The translations under genes were made by a program, and so were the position numbers. DNA of 33,864 nucleotides from Candidatus Staskawiczbacteria bacterium RIFCSPHIGHO2_02_FULL_42_22. Lineage in GTDB: Bacteria; Patescibacteriota; Minisyncoccia; Minisyncoccales; Staskawiczbacteraceae. Below are positions 7,490 through 33,364 of this stretch, in pieces; positions within the stretch are counted from its first letter, which is position 1, and every line of letters begins with the position of its first letter. The stretch lies in assembly GCA_001820175.1 (NCBI GenBank), contig MHOT01000005.1, forward strand, positions 1 to 33,864, written 5' to 3'. The notes beneath the pieces were generated by a model. The model saw nothing but the letters and a program-made list of their open reading frames with translations. It searched no databases and was not told the origin of the DNA.

Positions 7490-7621
7490 CAATTTTATTG
7501 CTTACAATAAAATTCGCAGATTAACGCAGATAAAACGCAGATTAACGCAGATTACGTAACGTATCCGCGATAATCCGCGTAACAATCCGCGTTTATCTGC
7601 GATTTTTACGGAGTAAAAAGA
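7490..7621 (+). repeat. Palindromic word-repeat spacer, word family cgcagattaa / tccgcgtaa
   Basis: cgcagattaacgcagataaaacgcagattaacgcagat ... atccgcgataatccgcgtaacaatccgcgtttatctgcg. Confidence 0.8.
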
Positions 7622-7622
7622 G

Positions 7623-7739
7623 ATGAAAGTTAGGCCCTCGGTAAAAAAAATTTGTAATGATTGCAAGATCGTCAAACGCACGGGCCGTATTTATGTTATT
7701 TGCAAGAAAAATCCAAAACATAAGCAAAGACAAGGATAA
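7623..7739 (+). CDS. rpmJ: 50S ribosomal protein L36
   Basis: [38 protein letters not shown]; translated by eye, absent from the ORF track. Confidence 0.93.
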
Positions 7740-7824
7740 GCGACAATTGACCTTTAACATTTGACCTGTGACACTTTTTTCACTAGTCAATGGTTAATTG
7801 TAAAATGTCAATTGTTAACTACGT
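7740..7824 (+). repeat. Palindromic word-repeat spacer upstream of rpsM, family shared with 27044-27128
   Basis: acaattgacctttaacatttgacctgtgaca ... gtcaatggttaattgtaaaatgtcaattgtta. Confidence 0.8.
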
Positions 7825-8214
7825 ATGCCACGAATCGCAGGGGTAAACATACCCGACAACAAAAGAATAGCAATTGCCATCACCTATATTTATGGGATAG
7901 GCAGGTCTTTGAGTGAAAAAATTATTAAGGAAACTAAAATTGACCCCAATAAAAAAGCAAAGGATTTGACTCCTGCAGAAATCAATGGTTTAAGGGAATT
8001 TATAGAAAAGTCATACAAGATTGAGGGTGACTTGCGAAGAGATGTGATGGTAAATATCAAACGATTAAAAGATATTGGAACTTGGCGGGGGAGTCGTCAT
8101 GCTAAAAAATTACCGGTGAGAGGTCAAAGGACAAAGACAAATACCAGAACAGTACGGGGAAATGTAAGAAAGACCATGGGTTCGGGAAGAAAACCGGCAG
8201 CGGCACCAACATAA
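7825..8214 (+). CDS. rpsM: 30S ribosomal protein S13
   Basis: MPRIAGVNIPDNKRIAIAITYIYGIGRSL..GTWRGSRHAKKLPVRGQRTKTNTRT. Confidence 0.97.
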   Translation: MPRIAGVNIPDNKRIAIAITYIYGIGRSLSEKIIKETKIDPNKKAKDLTPAEINGLREFIEKSYKIEGDLRRDVMVNIKRLKDIGTWRGSRHAKKLPVRGQRTKTNTRTVRGNVRKTMGSGRKPAAAPT

Positions 8215-8301
8215 TCTAAATTCAAAACTCTAAATCCTAAACTCTAAACCGTTTAGAATTTAGAAATTAGAATTTAGAATTTCTTTTACGAAGTAAAAGC
8301 T
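8215..8301 (+). repeat. Palindromic word-repeat spacer (actctaaatcctaa / gaatttagaaattag) plus start-adjacent hairpin CTTTTAC-GAA-GTAAAAG
   Basis: Read directly; hairpin 8283-8299. Confidence 0.85.
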
Positions 8302-8754: not shown

Positions 8755-8756
8755 TG

Positions 8757-8843
8757 TGAAATCCTAAATCCTAAACTCTAAATCCTAAACCGTTTTAGAA
8801 TTTAGAAATTAGAATTTAGAGTTTCTTTTGCAAAGCAAAAGCT
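8757..8843 (+). repeat. Palindromic word-repeat spacer, same family as 8215-8301, with hairpin CTTTTGC-AAA-GCAAAAG
   Basis: Read directly; hairpin 8825-8841. Confidence 0.85.
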
Positions 8844-10748: not shown

Positions 10749-10838
10749 GTGTGAAATCCTAAACTCTAAATCCTAAACTCTAAACCATTTTAGAATTTAG
10801 AAATTAGAATTTAGAATTTCTTTTGCGAAGCAAAAGCT
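10749..10838 (+). repeat. Palindromic word-repeat spacer, same family as 8215-8301, with hairpin CTTTTGC-GAA-GCAAAAG
   Basis: Hairpin 10820-10836. Confidence 0.85.
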
Positions 10839-11201: not shown

Positions 11202-11333
11202 TTCAATTTTATTGCAAAGCAATAAAATTTCGCAGATTCACGCTGATAAAACGCAGATTAACGCAGATCACGTAACGTATCCGCGTAAATCCGCGTAACA
11301 TCTGCGAATATCCGCGATTTTTACAAAGTAAAA
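11202..11333 (+). repeat. Palindromic word-repeat spacer, same family as 7490-7621, ending in TTTTTAC-AAA-GTAAAAA
   Basis: cgcagattcacgctgataaaacgcagattaacgcagat ... tatccgcgtaaatccgcgtaacatctgcg. Confidence 0.85.
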
Positions 11334-11900
11334 ATGATGGTTACAGAAAAAACTAAAATAAAAAAAGTTACTTCTCCCATAAAGGAAAAGCCACGGGTAA
11401 AAAAAGCAGAAGAAGTAATGACGGTTACGCCAAAAGTTGGCGTGGATATTCAATTAGATGATATTATGCCGGAAGATTTTCCAACCGAAAAGGAGCTCGC
11501 CTCAAAGCCGGACCGGTATTTTGAAGCCATTGGCCGGCGCAAAACCGCTGTGGCACGCGTGCGGCTTTTTACTCGAGGCGATAAGCAATTTTTAGTTAAT
11601 GGCAAAAGCTATCAGGAATATTTCTCTTTAAAGGGAGATCAAGAAACTTCGGTGGCTTCTATGAAAAAAATGAAGTGTTTGGATAAATTTAAGGTAACCG
11701 TAATGGTAAAGGGTGGAGGAAGAAATTCCCAAGCCGAAGCGGTGCGTCATGGAACTGCCCGCGTATTAGTTGATTTTAATAATAATTTTAGAAAACGATT
11801 AAGAAAAGCAGGTTACTTAACCCGCGACCCAAGAATGAGAGAACGTAAGAAATTCGGACTCAAACGCGCCCGCAAAGCACCCCAGTGGGCGAAGCGGTAA
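11334..11900 (+). CDS. rpsI: 30S ribosomal protein S9 with N-terminal extension
   Basis: YFEAIGRRKTAVARVRLFTRGDKQFLVNGKSYQEYF..RKAGYLTRDPRMRERKKFGLKRARKAPQWAKR. Confidence 0.95.
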   Translation: MMVTEKTKIKKVTSPIKEKPRVKKAEEVMTVTPKVGVDIQLDDIMPEDFPTEKELASKPDRYFEAIGRRKTAVARVRLFTRGDKQFLVNGKSYQEYFSLKGDQETSVASMKKMKCLDKFKVTVMVKGGGRNSQAEAVRHGTARVLVDFNNNFRKRLRKAGYLTRDPRMRERKKFGLKRARKAPQWAKR

Positions 11901-17515: not shown

Positions 17516-17897
17516 TAGATAGAATATTCCAGAATCGGACTTAAGGCCTCGTCCGTAAATAACATACAAGTTTTTCGCCAAGATGTCTGTCGCCTTGGCT
17601 CAAAAAAATGTGAGGCATAATAAAGTTATGCCGAGCATTTTTTGGAGCCAAGATGGCGGGCAGATTGGATGAAAAAGTGTATGTTATTTACGGACGAGGC
17701 CTAAGACCTAGAACATTTGGCAATATTGGTTGTCTTGGAGTCAAGACGCGAGGGTAATGTGTCGCAACAAATTCGCCCCGTCTCCAAAAAATTTACGAGG
17801 CGTAGCCGAAGCTACGGCGAGTAAATTTTTTGGGAAAGACAGTCAAGATTGGCAAATGGGCAGGTTCTTGGAGTCCGATTCTGGAATGTTTTATCTA
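17516..17897. mobile_element. MITE-like palindromic element (outer), TIR TAGATArAAyATTCCAGAATCGGACT, interrupted by the element at 17544-17701
   Basis: tagatagaatattccagaatcggact ... agtccgattctggaatgttttatcta; central GAGGCGTAGCCGAAGCTACGGCGA. Confidence 0.7.
17544..17701. mobile_element. Nested MITE-like element, 24-bp TIR GGCCTCGTCCGTAAATAACATACA
   Basis: TA-AGGCCTCGTCCGTAAATAACATACA ... TGTATGTTATTTACGGACGAGGCC-TA. Confidence 0.75.
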
Positions 17898-21204: not shown

Positions 21205-21218
21205 GAAACATGTTTTTC

Positions 21219-21352
21219 TAATTATCAAGTATCAATTATCAAGTATCAATTAAGTATTAAATTACTAAATTATCAAATTCGTATTTTCGTCATTGAAAAT
21301 TCACTCTATTGATAATTTATTGAAAATTGAAAATTGATAATTGAAAATTTCG
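21219..21352 (+). repeat. Palindromic word-repeat spacer, family attatcaagtatca / attgataattgaaaa
   Basis: Nearly identical stretch recurs at 25795-25905. Confidence 0.85.
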
Positions 21353-22726: not shown

Positions 22727-23734
22727 ATGTTCAACAACCGCATAGCAATTGACTTGGGCACCTGTAATTCCCTGGTGTATGTGCACGGAAAAGGAGTGGT
22801 ATTAAATGAACCGTCAGTCGTGGCGGTGTCTTTGACTGACAATAAAATTTTGGCAGTGGGCGAGGGTGCTAAAGAAATGATTGGCCGTACTCCCGCTGAT
22901 ATTAAAGTGTATCGCCCATTAAAAGATGGCGTCATTGCTGATTACAAAGTAACTCAGGCCATGATGCGCTACTTTATAAAAAGGACGACGAGCCACTTTA
23001 AACTATTTAAACCGGAATTAGTTATTTCGGTTCCCGCCGGTATCACTTCAACCGAACGGCGAGCCGTTATTGAAGCGGCCTTGTCGGCCGGTGCCCGTCA
23101 GGCATTTGTGGCCAAGGAGCCCATTTTGGCAGCCATCGGCGCTGGTATTCCCATTAATTCAAGTTCGGGCCATATGATTATCGACATTGGCGGAGGCACT
23201 TCGGAGGTGGCGGTCATTTCCCTGGGCGGCATTGTAACGGCTCATTCAGTAAGGATAGCCGGAGATAAGATAGATATGGCCATTGCCGAATACATTAAGA
23301 AAAAATACAATTTGGCGGTGGGTACTCAGTCGGCCGAAGAAATTAAAATAAAAGTGGGGACGGCCTTGCCCCAAAAAGAGTTGCGGTTTATGGAAATCCA
23401 GGGCCGCGATATGATTTTGGGCCTGCCGCGCAATATTAAAATTTCCAATAACGAAATATGTGAGGCCATTTCTGATGTATTGGGTGAAATTATCCAGGCA
23501 GTCAAACACGTGTTGTCAGAAACGCCCCCAGAATTGTCGGCCGATATTATGAACAAAGGAATTATCATGGCCGGCGGGGGAGCGCTGCTGCCAAAAATAA
23601 ATGAATTGGTGGCTCAAAGCACCGGCGTACCTTGCTTTGTAGCCGACGAGCCGCTCTTTTGCGTGATCCGCGGAACGGGAACGGTTTTGGAACACTTGGA
23701 GGAGTATAAGAAAGTGGTGATGAGCAAGAAATAA
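22727..23734 (+). CDS. mreB: Rod-shape-determining protein MreB, copy 1
   Basis: RIAIDLGTCNSLVYVHGKGVVLNEPSVVAVS..MIDIGGGTSEVAVISLGGIVTAHSVRIAGDK. Confidence 0.95.
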   Translation: MFNNRIAIDLGTCNSLVYVHGKGVVLNEPSVVAVSLTDNKILAVGEGAKEMIGRTPADIKVYRPLKDGVIADYKVTQAMMRYFIKRTTSHFKLFKPELVISVPAGITSTERRAVIEAALSAGARQAFVAKEPILAAIGAGIPINSSSGHMIIDIGGGTSEVAVISLGGIVTAHSVRIAGDKIDMAIAEYIKKKYNLAVGTQSAEEIKIKVGTALPQKELRFMEIQGRDMILGLPRNIKISNNEICEAISDVLGEIIQAVKHVLSETPPELSADIMNKGIIMAGGGALLPKINELVAQSTGVPCFVADEPLFCVIRGTGTVLEHLEEYKKVVMSKK

Positions 23735-25787: not shown

Positions 25788-25927
25788 GTTACCAAGTATC
25801 AAGTATCAATTATCAAGTATCAATTAAGTATTAAATTACTAAATTATCAAATTCGTATTTTCGTCATTGAAAATTCACTCCATTGATAATTTATTGAAAA
25901 TTGATAATTGAAAATTGAAAATTCGTT
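25788..25927 (+). repeat. Palindromic word-repeat spacer, near-copy of the murA spacer
   Basis: caagtatcaattatcaagtatcaattaagtattaaattactaaattatcaaattcgtattttcgtcattgaaaattcact shared. Confidence 0.9.
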
Positions 25928-32234: not shown

Positions 32235-32390
32235 GCAAAAGAAATCACAAATCACAAATTACAAATAAATTCAAATTACCAAAATCACAAATCCAAAACC
32301 CGTCACGTTTTGAATTTAACACTTTTGGATTTTGATATTGTTTAGGATTTCGGATTTAGAATTTAGAATTTCTTTTACGAAGTAAAAGCT
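32235..32390 (+). repeat. Palindromic word-repeat spacer (aatcacaaatt / tttggattttg) ending in the CTTTTAC-GAA-GTAAAAG start-adjacent hairpin
   Basis: Hairpin 32372-32388, same as rpsK. Confidence 0.8.
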
Positions 32391-32987
32391 ATGGATATCA
32401 CCGTTTTTAACTACACGTTTCATGATGTCCAGTGGACCGGTTTTGGTTGGGAGAAAATCTATGATTTTTTGGGTATAAAAGATTTTATTTATTTTATTTC
32501 TTCCCCCAGCATTCAAGAAGCCGTTTTCCCCATAAAACTGGTTTTTATTTTTTTTACCGTTGTCTTTTTTTGTGCCGTTATTTGGTTTTACTACAATAGC
32601 ACTTATTTGCAGTATAAATTTTTGCAAGACGTGTCGGAATTTTTTTCCAAGGAAAAGTACGGTTTGCAAAAGGTCTCCCGGAATTGGAATAAGATCAAAA
32701 AACGGGCCGATTCGGGGTCTGAATCGGATTTGAAATTAGCCATTATAGAAGCGGACGACTACTTGTATGAGACCCTGCAAGACATGGGCTATCAGGGCGA
32801 TACCTTTGAGCAATTACTTGAAAATAGCGATAGCAAAAAAATACTTTCTAATATGGATGAAATTTTGCAGGCGCACACGGTGCGTAATTCCATCGTATAT
32901 GAAGCAGGGTACGCTCTGGATATATCAACGGCCAAAAGAATATTATCAATATACGAAAATGCGATAAAGAATTTGGCTGCTTATTAG
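32391..32987 (+). CDS. Conserved-looking membrane protein (198 aa)
   Basis: TM PIKLVFIFFTVVFFCAVIWFYY then a soluble helical region. Confidence 0.7.
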   Translation: MDITVFNYTFHDVQWTGFGWEKIYDFLGIKDFIYFISSPSIQEAVFPIKLVFIFFTVVFFCAVIWFYYNSTYLQYKFLQDVSEFFSKEKYGLQKVSRNWNKIKKRADSGSESDLKLAIIEADDYLYETLQDMGYQGDTFEQLLENSDSKKILSNMDEILQAHTVRNSIVYEAGYALDISTAKRILSIYENAIKNLAAY

Positions 32988-33090: not shown

Positions 33091-33364
33091 TGCGATTCTA
33101 ATATACTAATTCATACTAATAATACTAATGCGAAAACGTTATTTGTATCATTATGGACATCACATCCAGAAACCGCACTTAAGTTGCCGACGGTTTGGCA
33201 ATCTTGGGCGGCTTGGAGCAAAAAATTTGTGAGGCCTAGCCGTAGCTACGCCGAACAAATTTTTTGTGAAAACTGCCCAAGATTGGCAAATCCGGCAAGA
33301 CTTGGAGTGCGGTTTCTGGATGTGATGTCCATAGTATGCATTCGCATATTGGCATCGCACTTCA
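33091..33364. repeat. Spacer homologous (inverted) to the rplQ spacer, interrupted by the element at 33154-33331
   Basis: tgcgattctaatatactaattcatactaataatac .. tagtatgcattcgcatattggcatcgca. Confidence 0.85.
33154..33331. mobile_element. 178-bp MITE-like palindromic element, about 25-bp TIR TGGACATCACATCCAGAAACCGCACT, TA duplication
   Basis: TA-TGGACATCACATCCAGAAACCGCACT ... AGTGCGGTTTCTGGATGTGATGTCCA-TA. Confidence 0.85.

Follow-up and report, generated by a model that had tools for sequence, protein, structure and literature searches.

REP, BIME and REPIN sequences, which are associated with RAYT (TnpA-REP) transposases, are described as short, non-coding intergenic palindromes present in many copies (PMC3116915, PMC8266576). 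In a single cyanobacterial intron loop, heptad units of variable copy number flank a stem on both sides (PMC3488679). At the chemical level, d(GCGAAGC) is an extraordinarily stable DNA mini-hairpin with a GNA loop, and GCGAAGC has a Tm of 78 C (PMC4686876). Here, we analysed 33,864 nucleotides of a Candidatus Staskawiczbacteria contig (MHOT01000005.1, positions 1 to 33,864; hereafter the window), in which six perfect 17-nt hairpins were found at the sites originally predicted:

7603 to 7619, + strand, hairpin TTTTTAC-GGA-GTAAAAA before rpmJ; ATG at 7623, GAG between stem and ATG
8283 to 8299, + strand, hairpin CTTTTAC-GAA-GTAAAAG before rpsK, then CT-ATGG
8825 to 8841, + strand, hairpin CTTTTGC-AAA-GCAAAAG before rpsD, then CT-ATGG
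10820 to 10836, + strand, hairpin CTTTTGC-GAA-GCAAAAG before rplM, then CT-ATGG
11318 to 11334, + strand, hairpin TTTTTAC-AAA-GTAAAAA before rpsI, with its stem extending into the ATG
32372 to 32388, + strand, hairpin CTTTTAC-GAA-GTAAAAG before the 198-aa ORF at 32391, then CT-ATGG

The original prediction placed all six directly 5' of ATG, in genes without an obvious Shine-Dalgarno sequence. This placement holds for the four copies followed by CT-ATGG, but the rpsI stem enters the start codon and the rpmJ copy is set off by the GAG spacer; moreover, the rpmJ loop provides a GGAG 9 nt before ATG, which is a possible Shine-Dalgarno sequence. When up to three mismatches were allowed, the hairpin pattern had 7 matches in the window versus 1.35 expected, and none of 100 shuffles reached 7. 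The genome searches used exact patterns rather than a covariance model: TTTTRC(RRA)GYAAAA has 30 exact matches in the 821 kb genome and its reversed control none, and the stem with any loop occurs at 34 sites. Turned to the purine-rich strand, the loop is GAA, AAA, GGA or AGA at 30 of these 34 sites, and GAA or GGA at 26; GAG, CGA and AGC/GCT are also present. The claim that the loop varies only among purines does not hold in the sense of the gene, where some start-side copies have the complementary loop (TTC at C18:53426, TTT at C22:3624). In the counts by sequence class, runs of N were scored as hairpins in the coding (89) and other-noncoding (45) classes and are to be subtracted. Twelve genomes of the same genus have 0 to 7 copies, compared with the 30 in this genome.

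A longer quasi-palindromic element of about 85-130 nt spans the gap from stop to start codon, and the hairpin makes up no more than its 3' end; the original prediction, although right about the hairpins, had overlooked this element. Family A consists of heptads (left arm AAATCCT/AAACTCT, right arm TTTAGAA/TTTAGAG), and family B of units of about 10 nt (CGCAGATTAA / ATCCGCG). The following copies lie in the window:

7509 to 7602, + strand, palindrome of ~10-nt units (CGCAGATTAA ... ATCCGCG) upstream of the rpmJ hairpin
8215 to 8301, + strand, whole rpsM-rpsK junction from stop to start, heptad palindrome (AAATCCT/AAACTCT ... TTTAGAA) plus hairpin
8755 to 8843, + strand, rpsK-rpsD junction, heptad palindrome plus hairpin
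10749 to 10838, + strand, rplQ-rplM junction, heptad palindrome plus hairpin
11225 to 11317, + strand, palindrome of ~10-nt units upstream of the rpsI hairpin

Other palindromic families, which lack this hairpin, occupy many other junctions. Intergenic gaps of 50-300 nt were called palindromic by our own threshold, a score more than 1.15-fold that of the best among 20 dinucleotide shuffles. This applied to 218 of the 351 gaps between co-directional genes, compared with 20 of 44 between convergent and 6 of 38 between divergent genes. Period 7 was the best in 104 of the 218 palindromic co-directional junctions, with a mean identity of 0.372 versus 0.282 for shuffled sequences. Because the hairpins are end pieces of much longer repeated palindromes filling the gaps between genes, they resemble spreading repeats more than a dedicated start signal, and the earlier interpretation is borne out only in part. 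We consider it probable that non-coding, REP/BIME-like palindromic repeats have expanded in number within the spacers of these small genomes, and that the hairpin represents their terminal mini-hairpin.

Related loci were found in Staskawiczbacteria and on one Parcubacteria contig. The sites in relatives were sought with RRA loops, which biases their loop statistics, and were read as short pieces around the matches; the copies are mutually related. There, the same hairpin lies beside other heptads (TTTCGAA, as in L117, TTGGTTA and TTTGGAA), such that the unit varies between genomes and is common to the copies within one genome. In relatives, the equivalent junction may lack the element or hold another family instead; the element is found in either orientation. 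Among eight genomes compared at rpsM-rpsK, four have the hairpin at the start of rpsK (the window genome, L117, L201, L210) and two have it at the stop of rpsM (L085, L179). L179 also has CCACTGC-GAA-GCAGTGG before rpsK, with the same loop on a wholly different stem. L116 has no insert at this junction and is nearly spacer-free in the same operon; in L115, different families occupy most junctions, elements of the same kinds are present at rpoA and rpsI, and the perfect stem is lost at rpsI.

The elements also reach rRNA. The 16S rRNA gene of the window genome, on contig C19, exceeds the model by 133, 190 and 758 bases at three loops; the inserts there contain family C, A and B palindromes, the family B one ending in the same hairpin. 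Also within this locus (L067:4734-8285) are an ORF-holding insert and a group I intron (7536-8070), and the 16S match stops at model position 873.

As in the REP/RAYT system, the palindromes are intergenic and high in copy number. Unlike in that system, the arms are made of heptad or ~10-nt tandem units and the genome contains no RAYT/Y1 transposase: PF01797 is absent from this 95% complete genome, while 5 of 14 control genomes have it. IS200/IS605-type (Y1) mobilisation was therefore rejected. Of the REP tags GTAG and CGTC, GTAG was not seen at the hairpin foot in a non-systematic look at the printed copies. The cyanobacterial heptads likewise flank a stem on both sides, but that case concerns one intron loop, whereas here many gene junctions and rRNA are involved and a separate terminal mini-hairpin is present. 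Most copies share the C-GAA-G or C-GGA-G apex of the GNA mini-hairpins, which are a chemical motif and not a genomic family. By their definition (GNA or GNNA loop and at least two G-C pairs; PMC4686876), the TTTTAC form, with one G-C pair, and the AAA and AGA loops fall outside. The relation of the GAA and GGA loops closed by C-G to stable DNA mini-hairpins is suggestive only. In the limited collection searched, we found no paper on such repeats in CPR bacteria, an absence that is weak evidence.

If the hairpins belong to spreading repeats, both the propagation of copies and the maintenance of their symmetry would take place in DNA, either through single-stranded hairpins or through copying between arms or copies, and the C-GAA-G and C-GGA-G loops would aid this spread by forming very stable DNA mini-hairpins. 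Copies would survive where nothing breaks, namely between stop and start codons or at the tips of rRNA helices. The start-facing bias may reflect that an AT-rich folded end with free CT or ATT before ATG is tolerated, or it may be selected for initiation. Against this reading, no mobilising enzyme was found, PF01797, the sole enzyme family searched, being absent; no target-site duplication has been demonstrated; the loops AAA and AGA are not of GNA type; and neutral spread does not account for the strong orientation bias towards the start. If the reading is correct, the spacer DNA of a strongly reduced genome consists largely of a few families of palindromic repeats turning over between relatives, which reach ribosomal operons and even the 16S rRNA gene itself without the known transposase of REP elements, and what copies them becomes directly testable. 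It would also be a warning that covariation next to start codons can stem from repeats.

Alternatively, the hairpin may be an RNA translation element that shapes initiation of non-Shine-Dalgarno genes, keeping the start open or insulating it from the upstream stem. Reading of the printed sequences revealed a start codon 0-5 nt after the hairpin at all but a few of this genome's sites, with starts that are approximate, as they come from our own simple gene finder. The exceptions are C18:34671, which falls within a coding region; two sites in 16S rRNA, one midway through a longer palindrome (C19:44866) and one terminating an insert (C19:46101); and C27:3910, the first element of a tandem pair. 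About 30 copies here face a start and 0 face a stop, and a manual count of array-linked copies in relatives gave about 35 and 5, respectively. Moreover, rpsK, rpsM and a PilC-like gene carry the hairpin in different families, predicted RNA folds often contain it, and Shine-Dalgarno-like motifs occur at 14% of palindromic junctions versus 29% of first genes by our own gene calls. The start-side bias is real and strong.

However, the hairpin is not restricted to sites before start codons. The predicted enrichment is seen in this genome and several relatives, but many genomes of the order show no such preference: the hairpin is present in 140 of 246 sampled genomes and lies within 6 nt of ATG in 44 of the 246. 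Relatives with many copies can have none before ATG (G050, 0/13; G177, 0/16; G032, 0/10), and in those of these genomes that were read, the hairpin is the tip of other palindromes. Heptad-linked copies also occur at stop codons, and one copy lies in 16S rRNA, such that a genome-wide lack of preference for starts, which was to count against the prediction, is found in part. The TTA search is an impure test for stop codons, as GTTATG and GCATTATG match too. In addition, the predicted minimum-energy fold drops the hairpin in 2 of 5 window copies, L115 retains rpsI without the perfect stem, and non-Shine-Dalgarno genes generally have reduced structure near the start (PMC5397173). No cis-acting RNA family reached the Rfam gathering score in the window. 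A thermodynamic distinction of the GAA loops proved uninformative, since the energy model scores every triloop tried alike.

Covariation of the inner pair was part of the original prediction. Among the 30 copies here (R left, Y right), this pair is A-T in 17, G-C in 12 and A-C in one; among 42 heptad-flanked copies in relatives, it is G-C in 24 and A-T in 18, with 0 mismatches. Both sides of the stem indeed change together, but the changes distinguish paralogous copies of a repeat, and wobble intermediates are almost lacking; for these reasons the covariation does not demonstrate an RNA element. In the long arms, there are 326 G.U mismatches versus 273 expected and 383 A.C versus 291 expected from arm composition. 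Both transitions are therefore raised and wobble is not favoured; RNA selection on the long arms was rejected, as G.U shows no excess over A.C. The absence of a wobble preference argues against selection for mRNA pairing, but falls short of proof that the mechanism acts on DNA. Taken together, we regard a translation element as unlikely; the real but unexplained start-side bias is the main reason for still considering it. It is likewise unlikely, to our minds, that the mini-hairpin has been taken over as a start-side cassette that sets downstream initiation, with repeat spread rewiring the translation of ribosomal and pilus genes.

The palindromes could also be a pure mutational product, generated in place, with no movement between sites, by slipped-strand growth of heptad tracts combined with template switching at palindromes. 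Consistent with this, tandem heptads occur in both arms, the unit is genome-specific yet common to that genome's copies, and the arms show both kinds of transitions. However, a single genome has the same hairpin and unit at many unlinked positions, which requires copying between sites and makes this origin quite improbable. A transcription signal, such as a terminator or processing site between cistrons, would fit the concentration between co-directional genes, but is very improbable given that the palindromes are rarer where genes converge, the place at which terminators would be expected, and that a start codon rather than a T-run comes after the hairpin.

Several other repeats were observed. 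Two 135-nt spacers in the window (21215-21349 and 25789-25923) are 96% identical and belong to another palindromic family (TTATCAA/TTGAAAA), and a further repeat pair (17785-17857 and 33219-33291) has a palindromic GCTACG core. Elsewhere in this genome, a miniature-transposon-like repeat of about 190 nt with the ends TAGACCTGTTGCGTA...TACGCAACAGGTCTA is present at C10:288-491, 830-1033 and 23151-23341 and at C27:14151, and spacer repeats with inverted ends, TCATTGCGAG...CTCGCAATGACG, are found at C10:51754, C22:35897 and other sites. Positions 1-1096 of the window contain a 153-bp tandem repeat in seven copies, within a long open frame.
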